From: a virus
Length of the DNA: 24,243 nucleotides
Virus record (IMG/VR): IMGVR_UViG_3300031857_001349
Span: 1 to 24,243 of that record
Strand: one strand, 5' to 3'
In this document: piece after piece, positions 14,052 through 24,243 of the stretch
Layout: every line of letters starts with the position of its first letter
How positions within the stretch are numbered: the first letter of the stretch is position 1
Notes under the pieces: model-generated
What the model was told of the DNA's origin: nothing
What the model saw: only the letters and a program-made list of their open reading frames with translations
Database searches by the model: none
Position numbers and translations under genes: made by a program

Positions 14052-16088
14052 TTATTTTCTTATACTACAATATATTGAATCATTAGCTCCAGATGTAAAC
14101 CATTCCGGTCCTTTGTACATTTGACCATCTTGTTTGACCATATCTTTCATATTTCCTCCAACTATATCATAATTAATTGGCTGTAAAGTTCTGGTGATTT
14201 GTCTTGCTAGCATATTTGCTATTAATAATGAGCTATAACGGTCTTTTCTTAATCTACCCTTTTTACCATTTTGTAATTTTACTTCTGGAGTATCCCACCG
14301 ATCTCTAGCATTTGGTCCTGTGCTAGTTTGTGTCATTACAATTGTGGTTAATTCATTTTTGAGTTCTTCTATTTCTAAAATACATTCGCTTAAACTATCA
14401 TATAAATTTTCTAAGTTAGAACCCATGATATCCTTACCTTCTGCATCAAGCGCCAAACCGAGAGTTAAATTATCAAATCTGGGAAATAATAAAACTTTAT
14501 CCTCTAAATCTTTTCTTAATCCATGGTTTGCTTGACTCGTCCAATCTGCCTTGGCAAACTGTACTAATTCAATGATATGTAAACCTTGTTGATCGTCTGT
14601 ATCTTTTGGCTTGTCATAATCTATTACTGGCCATAGAAGATTTTCTCCTTCTTCTAGTTTTGATGGATCATGCAAAGCTTCTTCGATAGCAACTCCACCT
14701 CCCTGAGCATCCATACCAATTCTCTCGCATGGAAATATTTTCATTAAATTTCTAATTTTTCTAGCACAAAAACCATAAAAATCATGCTCTTGTACTAATC
14801 CAGTTTTTTGTCTTTCTTTAAAGTTATTTCTATTTGTTGTCCAACAATATACTATCCTTGTATGATCATGATGAGCCTCTAGTATAGTGATACTAAAATT
14901 ATCTTGTTCGCTTGCAGGATCTATTCCATAGATATATTTATGGTTTAAGTTTCCTTTTACCATAGGATCAAATATAATATTTTTATCTCCAATATATATG
15001 GGTTTTGCTTCGCTAACAACACAGCTTTCTATTAAACTTCGTTTAAAGAATCCATCGCTATCTTTGGTAAAACAAGCAGCATACTCCATATTATATATGC
15101 CAGTATGTATTGTGGCTTTTGCTCTACTAACTTGTTTGTCATCCATAAAGCCTTTTGGAATAAGTTCATATGGTATTCGAATGATACTATAATCTTTCCA
15201 ATTAAAATTTACAGGAATCTCTCCTTTAAACATTTCTTCGAGTTTTCTAGTATCTCCTTTACTTTCTATTATGGTATGATATCTGTTCCAATATTGGGCA
15301 AAATGCTTAAAACTATAATCAGCAGTTCCTGCTATAATAGCTTGATTGCCCATTTTTTTGTCTAACGATTCTAGATCTGCATTCCATATTCCATTTTCAA
15401 TCATAGCTTGTTTTTTAGCTTGTTCTTTAACGTTCTGTATTGGATTGGCAGATACCGCAGCGAAACCAGAAACTACTGTCTCATAAATATCTGGAGATAT
15501 AGATGCAAATTCGTCTGCAATGATAATATGTGCTCTTAGTCCTCTAATTTTACTACCATCGCCCATTGGAATTGCCATTGCCCAACTTTCACCAAGTCTT
15601 AATGTGCATCTATCAACATCTCGTCGTGGACCATCATCGTTTCCACTATATATGCTTCTTAATATGGGACTATTTCTCCAAATAGTTTCCATATATTCAA
15701 AAATAACTTTACTCTGTCTAAAAGCTGCTCCCACAATAACTATTTTGGTACCAGGAACAAAAATACATTTTAATACAGCATACAGGGATAACATGAAACT
15801 TTTACCAAAGCCTCGGCTAGCAATATACATAGGAAATGGTCTATCCCAGAATTCCTGTAAGATGGCTATTTGAATGGGATGTAATTCTATACCAAATAAA
15901 AGTTTACATGTGATGCCAAAGTATTGAGGATTTTTTATGATACGCATAAGATGTAGATCTGGATTTTCTATATCTTCTTTATCTCGATTGATCATAAGAT
16001 TGCGATCAATGCTTAATAAAGAAAGGTCTCCTAGACCTAACCATGCGTCATCAAATATTTTCTGATTTGTTTGATTCTTCAATTTCAT
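14052..16088 (-). CDS. terL: Large terminase subunit (packaging ATPase-nuclease)
   Basis: 678 residues with AAAAAGG 5 bases before ATG; the start overlaps the end of the ERCC4-type nuclease gene. The ATPase domain has Walker A IASRGFGKS (about residues 89-97), Walker B IIIADEFA (188-195) and a coupling motif IIAGTADYSF (251-260). The C-terminal RNase-H-fold nuclease shows acidic residues in YIYGIDPASEQDNFS (Asp390) and ERIGMDAQGGG (Asp460), and RKDRYSSLLIAN near residue 630 as the likely third metal-binding block. The protein threads DNA through the portal and cuts concatemers. All core motifs appear intact. Confidence 0.95.
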   Translation of the reverse strand: MKLKNQTNQKIFDDAWLGLGDLSLLSIDRNLMINRDKEDIENPDLHLMRIIKNPQYFGITCKLLFGIELHPIQIAILQEFWDRPFPMYIASRGFGKSFMLSLYAVLKCIFVPGTKIVIVGAAFRQSKVIFEYMETIWRNSPILRSIYSGNDDGPRRDVDRCTLRLGESWAMAIPMGDGSKIRGLRAHIIIADEFASISPDIYETVVSGFAAVSANPIQNVKEQAKKQAMIENGIWNADLESLDKKMGNQAIIAGTADYSFKHFAQYWNRYHTIIESKGDTRKLEEMFKGEIPVNFNWKDYSIIRIPYELIPKGFMDDKQVSRAKATIHTGIYNMEYAACFTKDSDGFFKRSLIESCVVSEAKPIYIGDKNIIFDPMVKGNLNHKYIYGIDPASEQDNFSITILEAHHDHTRIVYCWTTNRNNFKERQKTGLVQEHDFYGFCARKIRNLMKIFPCERIGMDAQGGGVAIEEALHDPSKLEEGENLLWPVIDYDKPKDTDDQQGLHIIELVQFAKADWTSQANHGLRKDLEDKVLLFPRFDNLTLGLALDAEGKDIMGSNLENLYDSLSECILEIEELKNELTTIVMTQTSTGPNARDRWDTPEVKLQNGKKGRLRKDRYSSLLIANMLARQITRTLQPINYDIVGGNMKDMVKQDGQMYKGPEWFTSGANDSIYCSIRK

Positions 16089-17756: not shown

Positions 17757-18568
17757 GATTCTTCCTTTAGTACGCTTTCGGGTGTAAAAAATGGTCGGTC
17801 TACTGAATTGTCTGCATAATTATGATATTCTTCTAATTTATTTTTTGATCTTTCCGTGGCCAATTTAAGTATTTCCATTTCTCGTCCTTCTCTTTCTCTT
17901 ACTTGTTCCTCCTCTAACATTCTAATTAGGCCAACCCACGAACTCTTTCCATCCTCTATTCTTTTGATTCTTTGCTCTCTTGTGGCTTTTAAATCCTTGC
18001 TAATTTTTTGTTGTTCGTTGAGCAGTTTGGTATACTCATTAGTATAATTAGCAATGCTATTTCGAGCAAAACTTAATTGGGTTTCCATATTCATCAATTT
18101 TGGAACATCTCTTTGATCTTCTGGCTTTTCATATTCTTTGTCTACTTCTCGTTGAAGTTTTTCTGTCATGGCTATGTGGCGCTTTCGTTCTTTCATGCTT
18201 CGGTTAATAAGAATATCTATGGTGATGAATTGTTTGATCTGTAATTCTTCAGCAGGAAGCACATCCTCTCTGAACTGTTTAATAAGACCAATCCATGTGT
18301 TCTCAAAGTATTCTAGTTCTCCGCTATCTTCATCAAACTGACGGGCGATTTCTGGCCAAAATGTTTTGCTATATAATTTGTATCGTAATGTTTCATTATC
18401 CTTTTTTTCATCATTGCTTAGATAAAGATTATTTTCTTCTATGTATCTCTTTACTGGAGCTTCGCTTCTGTTTAGTTGATCAGCAATATTTTCAATTGGT
18501 AAAGTATTAACATTATCACGAATAAATTTTTCTTCGTCTAAGCTTAATTGTCCTCGTTTTTTTGACAT
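17753..18568 (-). CDS. Candidate small terminase subunit (HTH plus coiled coil)
   Basis: 271 residues. Residues 8-50 resemble a helix-turn-helix (SLDEEKFIRDNVNTLPIENIADQLNRSEAPVKRYIEENNLYL). Residues 60-120 are a mixed helical region, and 120-250 form a highly charged, probably coiled-coil section (MKERKRHIAMTEKLQREVDKEY and onward). The tail is short (RPFFTPESVLKEES). An N-terminal DNA-binding domain, an oligomerising helical core and location upstream of terL fit a TerS that recognises the packaging site. However, three genes lie between it and terL. Its N-terminal segment is similar in style to the HTH protein at 19406-19630. A general DNA-binding protein is the alternative. Confidence 0.5.
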   Translation of the reverse strand: MSKKRGQLSLDEEKFIRDNVNTLPIENIADQLNRSEAPVKRYIEENNLYLSNDEKKDNETLRYKLYSKTFWPEIARQFDEDSGELEYFENTWIGLIKQFREDVLPAEELQIKQFITIDILINRSMKERKRHIAMTEKLQREVDKEYEKPEDQRDVPKLMNMETQLSFARNSIANYTNEYTKLLNEQQKISKDLKATREQRIKRIEDGKSSWVGLIRMLEEEQVREREGREMEILKLATERSKNKLEEYHNYADNSVDRPFFTPESVLKEES

Positions 18569-19200
18569 TGGTAATCTTTCAATAATGTTTCTATATGGAT
18601 TTTTAGTTTATCTAATAGGGGCTTATTTACTTTTACTCCATGTTTCAATTTTAAATAAATTTCTCTATATTCTGTGCTAACTATATGTGAATCTAGAAAG
18701 TTTATTATTTCCTGGTTTTGCAGAAAAGTTGATGAGTCGTGTTTGTCTGCTATTGGGGTATCTTCGTTGTCAGCATCTTTATGAATGCTTTGGGGCCTCA
18801 TAATATTTTTTTTATTTTCGTTTCTGTTTTTCCAATTTGAATATAATTCACAATCATTTTTATTATCATACTCTGAACACTGGCTTGCTCTGGACTTGTC
18901 AAATAGTGGACAGGTTAAGCACGGTTTATCTGGGCGCTGATAATTATTTCGTTTGTAATTAAATAATCTGTTACGAACGTGGGTCCAAAGAAAGTTTTCT
19001 AGTGGGCGTTTTTGATCATACTTCTGCAAACCCTCTATAGCAAATATAGCGGCTTGTTGCTTCATGTCCTCATATTCATGATATCCAAATTTAAATTTAT
19101 ATGCTAATCGTTTACTAATGTTGTCTAATACGTTCAAAAAATCTTGTTCAGTAACGCCATATTGTTCATAAATATTATTTTTCTGATTTTTCTTGGTCAT
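18544..19200 (-). CDS. Sigma-70-family-like transcription factor (gp55-type, candidate late sigma)
   Basis: 218 residues. Residues about 28-85 resemble sigma region 2: DNISKRLAYKFKFGYHEYEDMKQQAAIFAIEG and LQKYDQKRPLENFLWTHVRNRLFNYKRN, the part that binds the RNA polymerase clamp helices and the -10 strand. A cysteine cluster follows (PCLTCPLF, SQCSEY, NDCELY; Cys94, 97, 108, 117), which may hold a metal. Then come a NRNENKKNIMRP segment and a charged C-terminal helix pair. No region 4 is seen, as in T4 gp55, which directs late transcription with a clamp partner. It sits near the head of the structural operon, so it probably governs the virion genes. It overlaps the gene downstream by 25 bases. 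Confidence 0.75.
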   Translation of the reverse strand: MTKKNQKNNIYEQYGVTEQDFLNVLDNISKRLAYKFKFGYHEYEDMKQQAAIFAIEGLQKYDQKRPLENFLWTHVRNRLFNYKRNNYQRPDKPCLTCPLFDKSRASQCSEYDNKNDCELYSNWKNRNENKKNIMRPQSIHKDADNEDTPIADKHDSSTFLQNQEIINFLDSHIVSTEYREIYLKLKHGVKVNKPLLDKLKIHIETLLKDYQCQKNEDN

Positions 19201-20002: not shown

Positions 20003-20006
20003 AAAA

Positions 20007-20249
20007 CCCCCCTATTCGTGGGGGAAACAGAAAAACCCCCCTAGTTGGGGGAACGCTACATACCCCCCGCGAGAGGGGAGGGGAGACTCCCCCCAATAGA
20101 GGGAGAGGGAGATACCCCCCGACAGAGGGATCACAAGTGTACACTACCACGCCAGAGGGATCCTACCCCCCAATAGGAGGATGAACAAGCGTATACCCCC
20201 CAATAGGGGGATACAATCCCACAATGATACGATTCCCCCCTAACGAGGG
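20007..20249. repeat. Array of C6-N4-7-G3-5 mini-hairpins
   Basis: This 243-base stretch has no gene. C6 runs begin at 20007, 20036, 20063, 20089, 20115, 20166, 20196 and 20235, each followed after 4-7 bases by GGGGG, GGAGG or GGG. The loops include TAGTT, AATA and GACAGA. Spacing is mostly 26-30 bases, with one gap near 20145-20160 where a degraded unit (GCCAGAGGGA) remains. The best unit, 20191-20214, has a longer stem (GTAT and ATAC outside the C/G arms). The units match the hairpins that end each gene downstream. Function unknown; a cassette hot spot, protein-binding array or stack of pause sites are possibilities. Confidence 0.8.
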
Positions 20250-20409
20250 AGAGTATCCTATGGATTACCTAATCCAATCTGGCAGCAAAACCTATGCCAA
20301 AAATCCAATCCTTACAATATCGAAAGAAAAAGATTTTCTCATTTTTTTTTCTTGCGTTGACGATACCATACTGTATAATCGGGGCATCACTACTACGAAA
20401 GGTTTTGAC
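20250..20409 (+). other. Leader region without a convincing gene, holding the first cassette promoter
   Basis: After the hairpin array the sequence becomes A/T-rich, with a run of nine T just before the promoter at 20352. The frame of the gene at 20410 is open back to 20224, but the promoter lies inside that frame, so the upstream codons are unlikely to be translated from it. They might be a relic of a longer gene. CCAATC-TGGCAGC at 20273-20285 faintly recalls the 42-base repeat at 21005 and 21686. Confidence 0.4.
20352..20379 (+). promoter_or_regulatory. Class-one sigma-70-like promoter
   Basis: TTGCGT, 16 bases, TATAAT, preceded by a T9 tract that may act as an UP-like element. The start codon of the gene it serves is 31 bases after the -10. 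A TTGACG lies inside the spacer at only 11 bases from the -10, which is too close. Confidence 0.75.
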
Positions 20410-20676
20410 ATGATCAAGTGTGCTGGTTACGATGTCGTCGGTGGTTCGATCCGTTGCACCTATAACGGCAAGCCCTACGCTGGCAAAGTGCTGTCGCAGC
20501 GTAAGACGGAAAAAGGCAATCTCCTCGTGGTCGAGACTGCCGATGGTGTCAAGTCTATCTATTGGGAAAAGTCTGTCGATTGCATCTTTCGGCCGCTCGT
20601 CCCCACCTTCCGCAGCACGGATGACGGCTACGACGCGGTGAAGGATCGCAGGGTCACACGCTACGGGATCCGGTGA
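20410..20676 (+). CDS. Small beta-rich cassette protein, unknown function
   Basis: 88 residues from ATG 20410, selected because the promoter at 20352-20379 lies upstream and GAAAGG is seven bases before it. The product (MIKCAGYDVVGGSIRCTYNG, then KPYAGKVLSQRKTEKGNLLVVETADGVKSIYWEK) alternates hydrophobic and polar residues like a small SH3-type barrel, comparable in layout to the proteins at 22060, 22297 and 22914. A basic tail follows (AVKDRRVTRYGIR). Codons end in C or G far more than in the minus-strand genes. The stop TGA is followed directly by the hairpin CCCCC-ATC-GGGGG. Likely an early phage protein acting in the cytoplasm; no partner is evident. Confidence 0.75.
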   Translation: MIKCAGYDVVGGSIRCTYNGKPYAGKVLSQRKTEKGNLLVVETADGVKSIYWEKSVDCIFRPLVPTFRSTDDGYDAVKDRRVTRYGIR

Positions 20677-20677
20677 T

Positions 20678-20690
20678 CCCCCATCGGGGG
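20678..20690 (+). terminator. C5/G5 hairpin directly after a stop codon
   Basis: CCCCC-ATC-GGGGG begins one base after the TGA at 20674-20676; the G run extends to 20693. No U-tract follows, so it is not a standard intrinsic terminator. It may be a 3'-end, pause or stability element. Confidence 0.5.
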
Positions 20691-20693
20691 GGG

Positions 20694-20723
20694 TAGACGG
20701 CAGGGTTCGGTGGTCTTTACAAT
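20694..20723 (+). promoter_or_regulatory. Weak class-two promoter
   Basis: TAGACG directly after the G run, an 18-base spacer and TACAAT. It is a degenerate version of the GGGGTTGACG-17-TAxAAT promoters farther right, at the expected distance from the next gene start at 20754. Confidence 0.5.
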
Positions 20724-20753
20724 CTAGTCTAACACAAAGAAAAGAGAAAGAAA

Positions 20754-20978
20754 ATGGAAAAGACGCTCAACCAACTGAACAATATCAAGGCTCGCATCTG
20801 GCAAGATAACTCTCACGAAGTGTCGATCATCTACTATCCCCGTCTGAACCGCTTCGTGGCAAAGTGTGACGCTATCATGACAGAAAAGCGAATCACACTC
20901 AACACGGCCGAACGTGTTTTGAACGATATGTTCTACGATTATTGCGTGGAAAACGCGAGTTGGATGGGGGTTTCATGA
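20754..20978 (+). CDS. Small cassette protein, unknown function
   Basis: 74 residues, with a purine-rich but weak ribosome site (GAGAAAGAAA) before ATG. The protein (MEKTLNQLNNIKARIWQDNS, SIIYYPRLNRFVAKCDAIM, ITLNTAERVLNDMFYDYCVE) looks like a helix, a beta-hairpin and a C-terminal helix. I recognise no family. The last codons lie in a G5 run (WMGVS), and the TGA is at the centre of GGGGG-TTTCATGAT-CCCCC, followed by ACTA-GGGGGG, so two hairpins compete around the stop. Confidence 0.75.
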   Translation: MEKTLNQLNNIKARIWQDNSHEVSIIYYPRLNRFVAKCDAIMTEKRITLNTAERVLNDMFYDYCVENASWMGVS

Positions 20979-20994
20979 TCCCCCACTAGGGGGG
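20966..20994 (+). terminator. Two mutually exclusive hairpins around a stop codon
   Basis: G5 (20966-20970), C5 (20980-20984) and G6 (20989-20994) allow either a hairpin with the stop codon in its loop or a tighter one just after the stop (loop ACTA). Ribosome position at the stop would decide which forms. Confidence 0.5.
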
Positions 20995-21004
20995 ATAGGT
21001 TGTA

Positions 21005-21046
21005 CCAGCCAATCCGCCCGGGCAGCCGAACCCCCACCTATGGGGG
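21005..21046. repeat. 42-base unit-boundary repeat, copy 1
   Basis: Contains CCAGCCAATCCG, a GC dyad around CCCGGG, GGGCAGC, and ends with the hairpin CCCCC-ACCTAT-GGGGG. It matches the copy at 21686-21728 in almost all positions outside the hairpin loop. It lies between two cassette units, just before the dyad at 21089. Confidence 0.75.
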
Positions 21047-21088
21047 ATGTACTACCTAATGTAATCTTTTACGCGGAATAATATATTT

Positions 21089-21122
21089 TGGCATGGCATT
21101 TGCATATGCAAACCTTGTGCCA
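21089..21122. promoter_or_regulatory. 34-bp dyad with sigma-54-like halves, copy 1
   Basis: A symmetric element: TGGCA, five bases, TTTGCAT, ATGCAAA, five bases, TGCCA, all centred between 21105 and 21106. The inner 14 bases are a perfect palindrome. Read on the plus strand, TGGCATG-N4-TTGC fits the -24/-12 consensus of sigma-54; read on the minus strand, TGGCACA-N4-TTGC fits as well. It may be a sigma-54 promoter, a divergent pair, or a repressor operator. It lies about 45 bases before a sigma-70 promoter. Confidence 0.6.
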
Positions 21123-21164
21123 AATAAGATATTTCTAGCGATTATTTTTTCAGATTTTTTTTCT

Positions 21165-21192
21165 TTGACATTCAAGTATCGTAGGGTAAAAT
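21165..21192 (+). promoter_or_regulatory. Class-one sigma-70-like promoter
   Basis: TTGACA, 16 bases, TAAAAT, with a T8 tract just upstream. Followed by GCCGATATA, a start-region sequence shared with the promoter at 21752. It serves the HNH gene. Confidence 0.85.
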
Positions 21193-21221
21193 GCCGATAT
21201 AACCTAGCAGGGAAAATGATC

Positions 21222-21674
21222 ATGCGACGAAAAAAGCCGATTCCCGCGACGATCCGCGAACAAGTTATCGCCCGCGACAACGGCCGTTGCCGTGCTTGTG
21301 GTATCGGCGACCGCGATGCTCTACAGTGTGATCACATTGTGCCGGAAAGCAAGGGTGGTTCCGACAGTCTGGACAATCTGCAGGCTCTTTGTGGAGTGTG
21401 CAACAATCGGAAGCAAAATACCAGTGTCGGCGAGTTGTCGATCCTTCCGCCGCTGTCCATGGCCGACGGTTTCGGCAACCCTATCGAAGTCATGCATCGC
21501 CGGGAAGTTTTTGTGCGGATGCTCGACGATGCTCGCAAGGCCGAAATCCGTAGTCTGGCCGATATCGCGGCCACGATGCGAGCGGAAGGTGTTGACGGTT
21601 TCCGCATTCGGCAACATCTGGAAAAGATGGTCAAGGCCGGGACCGTGGAGCGTATCTTGAAAATGTCCCGCTAA
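21222..21674 (+). CDS. HNH endonuclease with C-terminal winged-helix-like domain
   Basis: 150 residues from ATG 21222, which has AGGG at a nine-base distance; an ATG six bases earlier is too close to it. Residues 15-65 are an HNH domain with a zinc knuckle: RCRACG (Cys23, Cys26), CDHIVPESKGG (Asp37, His38), DNLQALCGVCNNRK (Asn52, Cys57, Cys60, Asn61). After a proline-rich link, residues 95-150 (EIRSLADIAATMRAEGVDGFRIRQHLEKMVKAGTVERI) look like a winged helix that could set DNA target choice. Candidate roles are destruction of host or rival-phage DNA, or mobility of the cassette array. The stop lies inside CCCGCTAATGGGGG. Confidence 0.85.
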   Translation: MRRKKPIPATIREQVIARDNGRCRACGIGDRDALQCDHIVPESKGGSDSLDNLQALCGVCNNRKQNTSVGELSILPPLSMADGFGNPIEVMHRREVFVRMLDDARKAEIRSLADIAATMRAEGVDGFRIRQHLEKMVKAGTVERILKMSR

Positions 21675-21681
21675 TGGGGGG
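21667..21681 (+). terminator. Short C/G hairpin with the stop codon in its loop
   Basis: CCC-GCTAAT-GGGGGG, a three-pair stem and the weakest of the series, holds the TAA of the HNH gene (21672-21674). The 43-base boundary repeat begins five bases later. Confidence 0.4.
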
Positions 21682-21685
21682 TGTC

Positions 21686-21728
21686 CCAGCCAATCCGGCC
21701 GGGCAGCGCGACCCCCTCGCTATGGGGG
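21686..21728. repeat. 43-base unit-boundary repeat, copy 2
   Basis: Matches 21005-21046: CCAGCCAATCCG, GC dyad CCGGCCGG, GGGCAGC, and a C5-TCGCTAT-G5 hairpin. Differences are concentrated in the hairpin loop and the bases next to it. Copies flank the HNH gene on both sides. Confidence 0.75.
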
Positions 21729-21751
21729 TAAACAAATCCGATTTTTTTTGT

Positions 21752-21779
21752 TTGACAACTAAAGTTCACACTGTAGAAT
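21752..21779 (+). promoter_or_regulatory. Class-one sigma-70-like promoter
   Basis: TTGACA, 16 bases, TAGAAT, with a T8 tract directly upstream and ACCGATATA after the -10. Confidence 0.9.
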
Positions 21780-21809
21780 ACCGATATAGAAAGTAAGGGA
21801 AAAACGAAA

Positions 21810-22013
21810 ATGAAAAATCTGAAGATGGAAGCCGTGAAGGTGGGTTTCGTGCTGACGAAGGATGCTCGTGGATTCTACCACCTGTACGATGTGAAGATGG
21901 GTTACGATGTGCTCGTGACCGCGTTCCGGGATAGCGTAGTCCGGATGATTCAGGATGAAAAGGCGATGATGGAATACAACCGTCGGAATCGCTCCCCCGT
22001 TGTGGGGGCTTGA
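21810..22013 (+). CDS. Small cassette protein, unknown function
   Basis: 67 residues with TAAGGG ten bases before ATG. The sequence (MKNLKMEAVKVGFVLTKDAR, FYHLYDVKMGYDVLVTAF, DSVVRMIQDEKAMMEYNRRN) suggests a beta-strand section then a basic C-terminal helix. I recognise no family. The last six residues (SPVVGA) are encoded by the hairpin CCCCC-GTTGT-GGGGG. The TGA stop is itself part of TTGACG, the -35 of the next promoter, so protein end, RNA hairpin and the next promoter share about 25 bases. Confidence 0.75.
   Translation: MKNLKMEAVKVGFVLTKDARGFYHLYDVKMGYDVLVTAFRDSVVRMIQDEKAMMEYNRRNRSPVVGA
21994..22008 (+). terminator. C5/G5 hairpin inside the last codons
   Basis: CCCCC-GTTGT-GGGGG ends three bases before the stop codon and two before the TTGACG of the next promoter. 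No U-tract. Confidence 0.5.
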
Positions 22014-22038
22014 CGGGGCCAAAAAAGTCTGGTACAAT
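22010..22038 (+). promoter_or_regulatory. Class-two promoter fused to the preceding gene end
   Basis: TTGACG, 17 bases, TACAAT. The TGA of the upstream gene (22011-22013) is inside the -35. The spacer GGGC-C-AAAAAAGTCTGG is nearly the same as that of the promoter at 22245. Confidence 0.9.
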
Positions 22039-22059
22039 AGTCACAAGAGGAAAAAGACC

Positions 22060-22236
22060 ATGCGAATCGGTGACAAGGTTTTCGTGCGGATTGCTCATAT
22101 GTACGCCACGGGCGTGATCGTCCAGATGGATACCGATACCTATCTAGTCAGAGTTGGCGACGAGGAAATCGAAATCCCCCGTGCTGACTGCACTAGCGTA
22201 GATGCTCTGGACAAATGGCTTTCGGAACCCACCTAA
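22060..22236 (+). CDS. Small SH3-like beta-barrel cassette protein
   Basis: 58 residues from ATG 22060, with GAGG nine bases upstream and the promoter directly before it. The pattern MRIGDKVFVRIAHMYATGVIV, TYLVRVGDEEIEIPRADC is that of a tiny SH3/KOW-type barrel: a G-D-K-V first strand, a G-V-I-V second strand and an aromatic-VRV third strand. It shares this with the proteins at 22297 and 22914. Small barrels of this kind commonly bind proteins or nucleic acids, so a role in modifying a host machine is plausible. TAA lies in the loop of CCCAC-CTAATA-GTGGG. Confidence 0.75.
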   Translation: MRIGDKVFVRIAHMYATGVIVQMDTDTYLVRVGDEEIEIPRADCTSVDALDKWLSEPT

Positions 22237-22243
22237 TAGTGGG
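22228..22243 (+). terminator. Hairpin with the stop codon in its loop
   Basis: CCCAC-CTAATA-GTGGG; the loop holds the TAA (22234-22236) and an out-of-frame-adjacent TAG. The next TTGACG starts two bases after the stem. Confidence 0.55.
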
Positions 22244-22244
22244 G

Positions 22245-22273
22245 TTGACGGGGCGAAAAAAGTCTGGTACGAT
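22245..22273 (+). promoter_or_regulatory. Class-two promoter
   Basis: TTGACG, 17 bases, TACGAT; near duplicate of the promoter at 22010 over about 30 bases. CCACTCA follows the -10. Confidence 0.85.
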
Positions 22274-22296
22274 CCACTCAACACGAAAGGGAAAAC

Positions 22297-22530
22297 ATGA
22301 TTCAGATTGGTGATAGAGTGTGTGCTGGTGGTCGAAACGATACCATCGCACGGGGAGTTGTGGTGGATATCATCCCCGGCAACGATTACCGACAGGCTAT
22401 GTATCGGATTCGGTTTGACAGTACGGGTAAGGATATCGTGACTCTCACCCCCACGCCGAATGAGAGTTGGGTGGATGAGGGTATGGTGTATGGGCCTTTC
22501 ATTGACCAAAATATCGGATGGGACAACTAA
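22297..22530 (+). CDS. Small SH3-like cassette protein, first of a coupled pair
   Basis: 77 residues with AAAGG seven bases before ATG. The beginning MIQIGDRVCAGGRNDTIARGVVVDI, then AMYRIRFDSTGKDIVTLTP, matches the G-D-x-V ... G-V-x-V ... Y-R-I-R order of the other small barrels, with a longer insertion. The acidic, aromatic C-terminus (DEGMVYGPFIDQNIGWDN) is unique. Its TAA is followed after one base by the ATG of the next gene, with no hairpin or promoter between them, so the two are co-translated. Function unknown. Confidence 0.75.
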   Translation: MIQIGDRVCAGGRNDTIARGVVVDIIPGNDYRQAMYRIRFDSTGKDIVTLTPTPNESWVDEGMVYGPFIDQNIGWDN

Positions 22531-22531
22531 C

Positions 22532-22777
22532 ATGATGCTTCGCCACGTTACCGTCAACGAAATCGTTCACGCTATCCACGAAATGATGGGCGATGATTGC
22601 GAATACTCTATCACGCATAGTGGCCATGCCAAGATGGATCAGCCTTACAATGGTGGTTACTATGTTACCATCAACAATCACCCCGACCGCGTGTTGCTTT
22701 ACTATGCCGATTCGTTCTATGATAAACTGAACGACTACTGTGCTATGGTGGAGCGAGGGGAATCGTACCCCGAATAG
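22532..22777 (+). CDS. Small cassette protein, second of a coupled pair
   Basis: 81 residues from ATG 22532 (or a second ATG at 22535), reached by reinitiation after the upstream TAA at 22528-22530. The frame is open farther upstream, but that part overlaps the previous gene. The sequence (VTVNEIVHAIHEMMGDDCEY, HSGHAKMDQPYNGGYYVTINNHP, VLLYYADSFYDKLNDYCAMVERG) suggests helix, beta-hairpin and C-terminal helix. I recognise no family; the HSGH segment is not a known motif in this setting. The stop TAG is in CCCC-GAATA-GGGG, so the hairpin appears only after the second gene of the pair. Confidence 0.7.
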   Translation: MMLRHVTVNEIVHAIHEMMGDDCEYSITHSGHAKMDQPYNGGYYVTINNHPDRVLLYYADSFYDKLNDYCAMVERGESYPE

Positions 22778-22780
22778 GGG
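22768..22780 (+). terminator. C4/G4 hairpin overlapping the stop codon
   Basis: CCCC-GAATA-GGGG with the TAG (22775-22777) spanning loop and stem. A GC-rich dyad (GGCCGGGGCGCC) follows, marking a unit boundary. Confidence 0.55.
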
Positions 22781-22860
22781 GGTGGCCGGGGCGCCGCCTC
22801 GACGTAAACCCTTGTGCCATAAGGACTTGTGACGATTTTATTTTTTGTGGATTTTTTTTG

Positions 22861-22888
22861 TTGACAAGCCGATACTATACTGTAGAAT
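22861..22888 (+). promoter_or_regulatory. Class-one sigma-70-like promoter
   Basis: TTGACA, 16 bases, TAGAAT with T8G directly upstream. Farther 5', CTTGTGCCATAA (22812-22823) matches the right half of the 34-bp dyad at 21089. ACACTCAC follows the -10, as in the promoter at 23080. Confidence 0.9.
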
Positions 22889-22913
22889 ACACTCACGAGA
22901 AAGAGAGGCTAGC

Positions 22914-23072
22914 GTGTTCGAAGTTGGCGACAAGGTTATCGTGAACAGTTACACCACTCCGAAAGAGGGGGTGATCGTGAAGTGGTACTACGACGAGGGA
23001 AACGTGTGGGTCGTTAGGGTGCAGGATCAGACGATATCGACTTTCTGCGATAGCGAACTGACCCCTGCCTGA
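22914..23072 (+). CDS. Small SH3-like cassette protein with GTG start
   Basis: 52 residues from GTG 22914, with GAGAGG five bases upstream and the transcription start predicted about 20 bases before it; a farther upstream ATG would lie inside the promoter. The product FEVGDKVIVNSYTTPKEGVIVKWYYDEG, WVVRVQDQTISTF aligns well with the protein at 22060 (GDKV, GVIV, VRV). It is a minimal five-strand barrel by pattern. The stop TGA is in the loop of CCCCT-GCCTGAG-AGGGG. Probably a diverged duplicate of its neighbours; function unknown. Confidence 0.75.
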   Translation: MFEVGDKVIVNSYTTPKEGVIVKWYYDEGNVWVVRVQDQTISTFCDSELTPA

Positions 23073-23078
23073 GAGGGG
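23062..23078 (+). terminator. Hairpin with the stop codon in its loop
   Basis: CCCCT-GCCTGAG-AGGGG, with TGA at 23070-23072 in the loop. The next -35 begins two bases after the stem. Confidence 0.55.
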
Positions 23079-23079
23079 G

Positions 23080-23108
23080 TTGACGCCGCGAAAAAGTTTC
23101 GGTAGAAT
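23080..23108 (+). promoter_or_regulatory. Class-two promoter
   Basis: TTGACG, 17 bases, TAGAAT; the spacer again has the C-G-AAAAAGT core. Followed by ACACTCAC. Confidence 0.9.
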
Positions 23109-23130
23109 ACACTCACACGAAAGGGAAATC

Positions 23131-23253
23131 ATGTATCTGACTTTCAATGATTGGATGGCTCTGGTGGCCTATCTGAGCGTTGCGGCTTGGATCACCTACG
23201 CTTTTAGCCAGTGTGTGAACGCTGGTATTTCTTTTTACGAGGAGAATCTCTGA
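23131..23253 (+). CDS. Tiny membrane protein
   Basis: 40 residues from ATG 23131, with AAGGG five bases upstream and its own promoter. The sequence MYLTFNDWMALVAYLSVAAW, then ITYAFSQCVNAGISFYEENL, has one hydrophobic segment (about residues 9-25), enough to cross the membrane once. The N-terminus is short and the C-terminus acidic. Small single-span proteins are common among early phage genes and may act in superinfection exclusion, lysis control or inhibition of a membrane process; none is proven here. The TGA is one base before the next ATG, without a hairpin. Confidence 0.65.
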   Translation: MYLTFNDWMALVAYLSVAAWITYAFSQCVNAGISFYEENL

Positions 23254-23254
23254 A

Positions 23255-23443
23255 ATGAATAGCCTTGATAAGATTCTGGCCGCGATGCGGAGTGGCAAGT
23301 ATGGTAGCGTGATCGACCCGAAGGGTAACGCTCACGTTGGACTCATCAATGCTATCATGCGAGAGGATGGTAGCGGTAAAAACTGGATTGTAACTGTTAC
23401 TAACAAAACTGTAAGTGAACGTGTGTTCATTCATGCCACCTGA
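23255..23443 (+). CDS. Small cassette protein coupled to the membrane protein
   Basis: 62 residues. Its ribosome site (GAGGAG) is inside the end of the membrane-protein gene, so the pair is co-translated. The N-terminus is helical (MNSLDKILAAMRSGKYGSVI); the rest reads as beta-strands (AHVGLINAIMRED, NWIVTVTNKTVSERVFIHAT). I recognise no family. Behind its stop is the richest run of C/G hairpins outside the array, three in about 60 bases, marking the end of a unit. Confidence 0.7.
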   Translation: MNSLDKILAAMRSGKYGSVIDPKGNAHVGLINAIMREDGSGKNWIVTVTNKTVSERVFIHAT

Positions 23444-23519
23444 AAGGGGGTGTGGGAGCTATCCCTCGAAAGGGGGGTAGCCCCCTATCTGCGGGGGTTG
23501 TACCGGCTATTCTAGCCGG
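23436..23519. repeat. Cluster of three C/G hairpins and a GC-rich dyad at a unit end
   Basis: CACC..GGTG around the stop TGA (weak), CCCT-CGAA-AGGG (23463-23474), CCCCC-TATCTGC-GGGGG (23481-23497), then the perfect CCGGCTA-TTC-TAGCCGG (23503-23519). The words GGTTGTACC before the last dyad also precede copy 1 of the boundary repeat at 21005. Confidence 0.65.
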
Positions 23520-23590
23520 ATAACGATACCGACAGCCAGCGTAACTCGTTATGTGGCAAGGACTTAGGGCTAATCGCCGCGCCCGATTTT

Positions 23591-23624
23591 TGGCACGGTT
23601 TTTGCATTAGCAAATCGTGTGCCA
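23591..23624. promoter_or_regulatory. 34-bp dyad with sigma-54-like halves, copy 2
   Basis: TGGCAC, four bases, TTTTTGC-ATTA-GCAAA, then GTGCCA, with inner and outer arms sharing the same centre and the same 34-base length as the copy at 21089. The plus-strand TGGCACG-N4-TTGCA is an excellent match to the sigma-54 consensus, and the minus strand also fits. It stands about 22 bases before the class-one promoter at 23646. Confidence 0.65.
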
Positions 23625-23645
23625 CAAAAAATACATTTTTTTTTC

Positions 23646-23673
23646 TTGCTATCTAAAGAATGCAGGGTATAAT
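23646..23673 (+). promoter_or_regulatory. Class-one sigma-70-like promoter
   Basis: TTGCTA, 16 bases, TATAAT, with a T9 tract just upstream and GTCGATA after the -10. Confidence 0.8.
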
Positions 23674-23694
23674 GTCGATAAGTGAGAGTGAAAG

Positions 23695-23829
23695 ATGATG
23701 AATGATATCCTGATTGTGTCCGATTGCTGTGGGGCTGAAATGACCCCGATTCACGCCGAACACGGCGTTTGCCCTCAGTGTGGCGAACACTGTGGGGCCG
23801 ATGTGCAAATCTGGCCGATCCCCGAATAA
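23695..23829 (+). CDS. Tiny cysteine-rich zinc-ribbon-like protein
   Basis: 44 residues from ATG 23695 (or 43 from the next codon). GAGAG lies 6-9 bases upstream. The layout MMNDILIVSDCCGAEMTPIH, then AEHGVCPQCGEHCGADVQIW, has a CC pair (11-12) and C-P-x-C-G-x-x-C (27-33), the pattern of a small zinc ribbon seen in many phage and bacterial mini-proteins. It could bind nucleic acid or a host protein. The stop TAA lies in CCCC-GAATAA-GGGG and a class-two promoter follows. Confidence 0.7.
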   Translation: MMNDILIVSDCCGAEMTPIHAEHGVCPQCGEHCGADVQIWPIPE

Positions 23830-23833
23830 GGGG
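23820..23833 (+). terminator. C4/G4 hairpin with the stop codon in its loop
   Basis: CCCC-GAATAA-GGGG (G run to 23835) with TAA at 23827-23829; nearly the same sequence as the hairpin at 22768-22780. The next -35 (TTGCGG) begins directly after it. Confidence 0.55.
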
Positions 23834-23835
23834 GG

Positions 23836-23864
23836 TTGCGGCGGCGGAAAAAGTTTCATATACT
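23836..23864 (+). promoter_or_regulatory. Class-two promoter
   Basis: TTGCGG, 17 bases with the conserved G-AAAAAGT core, TATACT. Spacer layout and position match the other fused promoters, though both boxes are weaker. Confidence 0.7.
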
Positions 23865-23891
23865 ACCATCATCACCAAAAGGAAAAAGAAA

Positions 23892-24224
23892 ATGGCTACC
23901 AAGTTCAAGATCATCGAAGATGCCAAGCGTCAGGCTCGTATGTGCTTTCTCGGCATCGCAATCCCTCACCAGCCCCGACTCGCAAACGGCGAGTATGGTC
24001 CGATCCGCAGCGAAAAGGTTCTCAAGTTCAATCGCAAGGCTCTCCGTCGCAAGGGGGGTGTGAAGGTTGAGAAGGCCGATCCCCGCATGGTGGGGGGTGA
24101 AGATACCATGATCGTGAAGGTGGGCAAGCCGGGTTCGCCGGAACGCAAGGCCGCACTGGCCGAGCAGTACGCCGCCATTTTGGCCGCTGGTGAGGAAGTC
24201 TCCCCCTTCGGCTGGAGGGGTTGA
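23892..24224 (+). CDS. Small basic cassette protein, unknown function
   Basis: 110 residues from ATG 23892 with AAAAGG nine bases upstream; the longer open frame covers the promoter and previous gene. The protein is basic in its middle (SEKVLKFNRKALRRKGGVKVEK) with a beta-type start (MATKFKIIEDAKRQARMCFLG) and an alanine-rich helix near the end (ERKAALAEQYAAILAAGEE). It could bind nucleic acid. I recognise no family. The last codons form part of CCCCT-TCGGCTGG-AGGGG, and the TGA stop is inside the TTGACA of a following promoter, repeating the arrangement at 22010. Confidence 0.75.
   Translation: MATKFKIIEDAKRQARMCFLGIAIPHQPRLANGEYGPIRSEKVLKFNRKALRRKGGVKVEKADPRMVGGEDTMIVKVGKPGSPERKAALAEQYAAILAAGEEVSPFGWRG
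24203..24220 (+). terminator. Hairpin in the last codons
   Basis: CCCCT-TCGGCTGG-AGGGG, placed one base before the stop codon and directly before the next -35. Confidence 0.5.
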
Positions 24225-24243
24225 CAATATCCCCTCTGTGTGG
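24221..24243 (+). promoter_or_regulatory. Class-two promoter cut by the window edge
   Basis: TTGACA at 24221-24226 is followed by exactly 17 visible bases; the -10 box would begin at the first base beyond the window. The array therefore continues to the right. Confidence 0.55.

Follow-up and report, generated by a model that had tools for sequence, protein, structure and literature searches.

A plastic, probably early phage region of small genes and promoters, with repeated regulatory DNA at its indel ends

Layout of the array

The DNA described here is an IMG/VR virus fragment of 24,243 nt (IMGVR_UViG_3300031857_001349), referred to below as the window, whose right end (20340–24243) holds an array of 12 small open reading frames (ORFs) of 40–152 codons in series, o1 to o12, with ten promoters; our subject is how such arrays vary among related phages. 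The left part of the window carries virion and packaging genes (terminase, portal and cement protein) on the minus strand at a G+C content of 30–37%, and the array genes lie on the plus strand in DNA of about 50% G+C. As the complete sequence of the window recurs without change within a 75-kb contig, L004, the DNA past the right edge of the window can be read there, and in that contig the promoter-per-gene layout, with tRNA genes behind promoters of their own, runs on for more than 10 kb. Zone counts and gene adjacency were obtained from 57 non-redundant relatives, divided into the late-gene flank on the left, the array and the early region to its right (the right flank), with gene families defined by simple gene calls and louvain clusters.

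Ten promoter-like −35/−10 sites with spacers of 16–18 nt precede ORF starts in the array, all on the plus strand, the start codon following about 20–31 bases after the end of the −10 box. The sequence-only reading of this DNA had counted eleven; ten stood by their boxes and spacing, and the eleventh, a TTGACA at 24221, has no −10 box, the next promoter in L004 being about 115 bp further on. Promoters of a compact layout, in which the C/G hairpin is fused to both the stop codon and the TTGAC box and the spacer resembles GGCGAAAAAGTTTCGG, serve o5 (TTGACG-17-TACAAT, 22010–22038), o6 (TTGACG-17-TACGAT, 22245–22273, with 28–30 of 30 letters as in the o5 promoter), the pair o9–o10 (TTGACG-17-TAGAAT, 23080–23108) and o12 (TTGCGG-17-TATACT, 23836–23864). 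The tight fusion of stop, hairpin and next promoter that had been described is a property of this compact type, whereas the long layout has elements in between: intergenic dyads, a T-tract, TTGACA and a spacer with CTAAAGT or CCGATA. Further sites stand before o1 (TTGCGT-16-TATAAT, 20352–20379), o2 (TAGACG-18-TACAAT, 20694–20723, the weakest), o3 (TTGACA-16-TAAAAT, 21165–21192), o4 (TTGACA-16-TAGAAT, 21752–21779, preceded by a T-tract), o8 (TTGACA-16-TAGAAT, 22861–22888) and o11 (TTGCTA-16-TATAAT, 23646–23673). Neither o7 nor o10 has its own promoter, and the pairs o6–o7 and o9–o10 are each placed behind one.

At the left edge of the array, about nine C-to-G hairpins (CCCCCC-loop-GGGGG) are clustered at 20006–20256 in DNA without an ORF, and a similar cluster is present in L080. 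Within the array, hairpins lie just past the stop codons of o1 (20678–20693) and o2 (20980–20994) and at 21031–21046, 21711–21729 and 23478–23500. Stop codons fall in the hairpin loop for o5 (22228–22243), o7 (22766–22784), o8 (23060–23081; z −2.6) and o11 (23816–23838; z −2.5), and likewise in a weak C/G-rich hairpin for o10 (23437–23452). For o4 and o12 the hairpin lies within the end of the ORF (21994–22008 and 24200–24222) and the stop codon belongs to a following TTGAC box, the o4 stop TGA being part of the next TTGACG and the o12 stop lying inside the non-promoter TTGACA at 24221.

Most array ORFs have no known domain. The first, o1 (88 aa, 20410–20676), has homologues in L052 and L059 (identity of about 49%), and o2 (74 aa, 20754–20978) belongs to array family 22, found at 19 loci. 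An HNH endonuclease is encoded by o3 (152 aa, 21216–21674; Pfam HNH, 6e-14), followed by o4 (67 aa, 21810–22013), o5 (58 aa, 22060–22236; a small basic-barrel-like sequence with a GDxV start), o6 (77 aa, 22297–22530), o7 (81 aa, 22532–22777) and o8 (52 aa, 22914–23072; GTG start). The remaining ORFs are o9 (40 aa, 23131–23253; membrane-like), o10 (62 aa, 23255–23443), o11 (44 aa, 23695–23829; four-cysteine zinc-ribbon-like, weak Pfam hit of 0.003) and o12 (110 aa, 23892–24224), a conserved array anchor with relatives in 169 viral stretches. The latter occurs in nearly all relatives, with two copies in L010, L013, L064 and L067, and its structure prediction is of low confidence (pLDDT 71, pTM 0.32). 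A common GDxV...GxIV start is present in o5, o6 and o8, which are possibly duplicated SH3-like small barrels. Elsewhere, an HU/IHF-family DNA-binding protein is encoded as an array gene (family 68; L023 8631–8909 and six more loci).

Promoters and hairpins in the three zones

When a strict sigma70-like pattern (TTGACR-N16/17-TANNNT) was counted on the plus strand, there were 287 matches in the array (9 expected), 553 in the right flank (10 expected) and 5 in the late flank (18 expected); the corresponding minus-strand counts were 8, 7 and 33. For 326 of 514 array ORFs a looser pattern was found upstream at a suitable distance, as opposed to 43 of 514 shuffled upstream sequences. That most genes have a sigma70-like promoter of their own, as had been proposed, is thus borne out by both the zone enrichment and the position of the sites. 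Whether the promoters of a genome evolve in concert was also considered, and a blunt test revealed no excess similarity (0.61 within genomes vs 0.61 between them).

The hairpins have a different distribution. With the pattern C4+N3–12G4+ and expectations taken from dinucleotide shuffles, 225 were counted in the array (15.3 expected), 10 in the right flank (15 expected) and none in the late flank (1.7 expected), and the opposite polarity was found only 49 times in the array compared with the 225 C-first hairpins. Such hairpins lie near 84 of 509 array stop codons and near none of the 667 stop codons of the right flank. These counts indicate that promoters mark the whole early side and hairpins only the zone in which genes are shuffled. 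Because single window hairpins have only a modest advantage in stability over shuffled sequences (z −0.3 to −2.6), it is their concentration in one zone that constitutes the evidence. The statement that C/G hairpins end the units holds in that they are real, confined to the array and tied to stop codons; they have no U-tract, and so the role of terminator is unproven, and a terminator scan of the array detected no terminator-like site outside ORFs. The hairpins most likely act in RNA, by 3′ end protection or by weak termination or insulation, and this is the weakest step of our interpretation.

The motif GGTGTAT precedes late genes in 36 of 214 cases against 0.6, and candidate late promoters of this kind are located in the window at 14052, 11832, 8737 and 1229. 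Next to the array, on the minus strand (18544–19200), lies the gene of a sigma70 region 2-like protein, which all relatives encode; it could be the reader of GGTGTAT and is a candidate late sigma factor. Judged from the motifs and this protein, a division into an early array that uses host sigma70 and late virion genes is plausible.

Gene order varies among relatives

Adjacency of genes was kept at 97.2% in the late flank, 48% in the array and 79% in the right flank, and gene order at 99.9, 82 (75 without the anchor families) and 95%, respectively. The share of the most common right-hand neighbour was 0.78 in the late flank, 0.27 in the array and 0.56 in the right flank. Even among relatives of 60–80% core-protein identity, array adjacency was 0.44 vs 0.98–0.99 for the late flank (0.44 vs 0.99 at 70–80%), and the family overlap of any two arrays was only about a quarter. 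The most widespread of the shuffled genes is o10 (family 15), which is found at 28 loci with 22 different right-hand neighbours. The modular shuffling postulated from one sequence is therefore real in that order, gain and loss all vary among relatives, and a fixed order without gain or loss, which had been named as the outcome that would speak against it, is not what the arrays show.

Promoter and ORF as separate units of exchange

Global alignment of upstream regions was abandoned because unrelated pairs have a background identity of about 0.6, and boundaries of local homology were used instead. For ORFs in differing contexts, homology mostly extends from the ribosome-binding leader to the stop codon, and a smaller group has homology that starts before the promoter. 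In weakly related pairs a start at the leader may reflect promoter divergence. Between close relatives such a start is a genuine junction: the ORFs L018_20 and L028_20 share 98.4% identity, with homology that begins at −18, in AGAAAGAGAGAG, and unrelated sequences upstream. Three promoter types precede o4 in three phages, namely the long sigma70 type in the window, the compact hairpin-fused type in L026 and a sigma54-like module in L025. The module found in L025 measures about 110 bp and contains a TTGGCAC-N5-TTGC box; roughly a dozen different ORFs have it upstream, always at the same distance.

These observations bear on whether the array consists of PeSL (promoter early stem-loop) cassettes, which are said to have been described in T4-like phages by Arbiol in 2010 and Comeau in 2014. 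On such an explanation promoter, ORF and stem-loop terminator would travel together, with the stem-loop serving as both terminator and recombination island. The dense composites of promoter and stem-loop in a shuffling region would fit, as would those blocks that do bring their promoter, such as o9–o10 in L026, which is 86% identical over 23075–23449, a stretch reaching from one hairpin to another. However, promoter and ORF often part, indel ends (see below) lie in the leader/−10 region or in another dyad with only one at GGGCTTGACA, the hairpins are not followed by a U-tract, and the array has no terminator-like site outside ORFs. We consider true PeSL cassettes unlikely here. Since promoter and ORF recombine separately, there is no fixed promoter–ORF–hairpin cassette; of the self-contained cassettes of the sequence-only reading, what survives is the small, promoter-served ORFs and their shuffling, and what does not is their transfer as one piece.

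Repeats at the ends of indels

Among 27 clean indels between relatives, 14 have exact direct repeats of at least 10 bp at their ends, compared with 0.9% of random pairs of positions in the same loci, the median repeat being 10 rather than 5 bp; this null drew on random positions and not on intergenic ones alone. Examples are the indel of 1079 bp between L067 and L064, with flanks 98% identical, and that between L018 and L020. The repeats correspond to the −10/leader region (TGTAGAATGTCGATAAGAGAACA, AGAAAGAGAGAG), to the CGTAAACTCTTA dyad or to a GC block (GAGCCGGCGCCGC), and indel ends almost never fall in a C/G hairpin. Of 14 long contigs, 13 carry a RecA-family gene, and no RecT was detected in any of them.

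We consider it probable that the array is the left end of a plastic early region, similar to PeSL arrays but distinct from them, whose genes are rearranged by recombination between repeated regulatory sequences. In our proposed mechanism, small accessory ORFs on one strand, mostly behind their own sigma70-like promoters, would be transcribed early by the host polymerase. Islands of 10–39 bp common to unrelated genes, made up of the −10 box and the purine-rich ribosome-binding leader, together with a second type, the intergenic dyad CGTAAACCCTT..AAGGACTTACG and the GC block belonging to it, would allow homologous recombination, probably by a phage RecA/UvsX-type recombinase. Such recombination would delete, duplicate, move and import genes and could set an ORF behind another promoter, with C-to-G hairpins at stop codons marking gene ends in the array zone only.

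Several points weigh against this interpretation. Thirteen of the 27 clean indels have no 10-bp repeat; about one-third of array ORFs have no recognizable promoter or lie close behind another gene; the link to the recombinase is one of co-occurrence only; the match of the sigma70 region 2-like protein, at 23.2 bits, falls just short of the Pfam threshold of 24; and single family assignments can be wrong, given the simple gene calls and louvain clusters from which they derive.

The indels without long repeats, and the lack of known domains in most ORFs, would also be expected under passive turnover, in which short ORFs of low value come and go by illegitimate recombination, selection keeps junctions outside ORFs and the repeats at indel ends are a by-product. 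Exact repeats far above those at random positions of the same loci argue against this, as does retention of o10, o12 and families 21–23 across loci at 70–95% identity, from which we conclude that these conserved ORFs are under selection. As the null was not restricted to intergenic positions, passive turnover is only weakened, and we regard it as rather improbable, though slightly less so than true PeSL cassettes.

Site-specific exchange of cassettes at the C/G hairpin, either in the manner of integrons or through homing endonucleases, would explain why hairpins sit at gene ends and why this hairpin type is unique to the shuffling zone, and an HNH gene is indeed present in the array. Yet the junctions lie away from the hairpins, no attC-like Rfam family was found and HNH is missing from most arrays; moreover, unlike integron cassettes, the array ORFs have promoters. 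We judge this explanation very improbable.

Sigma54-like boxes

Two places in the window carry a pair of convergent sigma54-like boxes, TGGCAY-N5-TTGC (21088–21123, in which the N5 parts are non-complementary, and 23590–23624). Forward and reverse counts of YTGGCAYGRNNNTTGCW were 54 and 63 in arrays, 5 and 0 in the right flank and 0 and 0 in the left flank, and in whole contigs of 150–230 kb nearly all copies lie inside the array. Gaps between paired boxes are 4–6 for convergent pairs and 7–8 or 16–18 for divergent pairs. An RNA hairpin formed from the TGGCAY..GTGCCA palindromes was rejected (N5 agreement 24% vs 29% in the null), and as the N5 parts do not pair, the box pairs are taken to be DNA sites. 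In all 22 distinct copies of the mobile module of about 110 bp (L025, L032, L072, L081 and others), TTGGCAC and TGC are conserved with the correct spacing and N5 is variable, and GG-N10-GC, the invariant part of the sigma54 consensus TGGCAC-N5-TTGCW, is likewise kept in 22 of 22.

In their forward orientation these modules look like sigma54 promoters, and the many reverse copies of the box are unexplained. Neither sigma54 nor its activators (enhancer-binding proteins) are phage-encoded in the 14 long contigs, and a narrow literature search met no precedent for what the modules point to, promoters of sigma54 type among the early genes of a phage. A further and tentative idea, which we hold to be possible rather than probable, is that interchangeable promoter modules, two of sigma70 type and one of sigma54 type, recombine independently of the small ORFs and so place one and the same early gene under different host sigma factors from phage to phage, and that the hosts may be planctomycetes. 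Mycobacteriophage L5 carries stoperators, short asymmetric sites in many copies between genes. The array, too, has many intergenic copies of a short asymmetric site, but its box reads as a −24/−12 promoter element, for which no repressor is known.

Comparison with other plastic phage regions

PeSL regions resemble the array in having dense early-type promoters and stem-loops between small genes and in being hyperplastic and scrambled in order beside a conserved late block (PMC4503421). The array differs from them in its phage lineage, in a C/G hairpin that has no U-tract and is not the junction, in the separate exchange of promoter and ORF, in its at least three promoter types and in the further repeated dyad used as a junction. 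The PeSL resemblance suggested earlier accordingly extends to layout and to shuffling through repeated regulatory DNA: host-sigma70-type promoters are dense, the stem-loop is joined to the promoter in the compact type and shuffling is modular. Regarded as a recombination island, the element contributes its promoter/leader part to indel ends and not its hairpin part. With a stem-loop that lacks the U-tract of an intrinsic terminator and a carrier without a T4-like terminase, the array is not shown to be PeSL. The ORFanage region of cyanophage S-PM2 is also similar, in that its ORFs co-occur with rarely conserved synteny and have freshwater relatives (PMC4503421). Searches of that region met few promoter or stem-loop elements, and PeSL was held to be unlikely for it (PMC4503421), whereas the array has repeated elements at its junctions.

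That phages owe plasticity to shuffling through repeated regulatory DNA is an old idea, and it can here be measured far from T4, in dozens of relatives and with single events visible; a promoter can be exchanged separately from its gene; and hundreds of small, probably host-directed phage proteins are marked as candidates for testing.

Carriers and minor features of the early region

The carriers are uncultured phages, mostly from freshwater. Relatives of the terminase were found in hundreds of viral contigs of up to 230 kb, its identity to any cultured phage is only about 25%, and its matches are limited to distant Bacillus/Microcystis siphophage-type records, with no T4-like terminase relative at E<1e-5. 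A search for the T4 Gp23 capsid, run without a positive control, gave no matches, and o12 had none among 50,697 phage records. The carrier is best read as an uncultured tailed phage of a non-T4 lineage, with a genome of at least 150–230 kb. As to the host, three terminase matches in metagenome-assembled genomes (an alphaproteobacterium, Flavobacteriales and SAR202) were dismissed as binning noise since the three are unrelated. Family 38 (L018 5928–7172, L048 6867–8099 and nine more loci) comprises S8 peptidases with the N-terminus LExLExRxxLS/A. This motif, confirmed by no library model, we take to be typical of planctomycete exported proteins and hence a host clue.

In L004, the segment 13796–14233 comprises a strong promoter and, behind it, about 430 bp without an ORF; the segment is conserved in the right flank of L005, has no Rfam match and is a candidate non-coding RNA gene. 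The early region of L004 also contains Pistol self-cleaving ribozymes at 18807–18869 and 19026–19088 (Rfam, 50–57 bits). Further examples occur in L013, L020, L046, L054 and L066, several just before tRNA genes, and in L066 a ribozyme with its end at 18023 is followed by a tRNA starting at 18025, which suggests that tRNA 5′ ends are made by the ribozyme.

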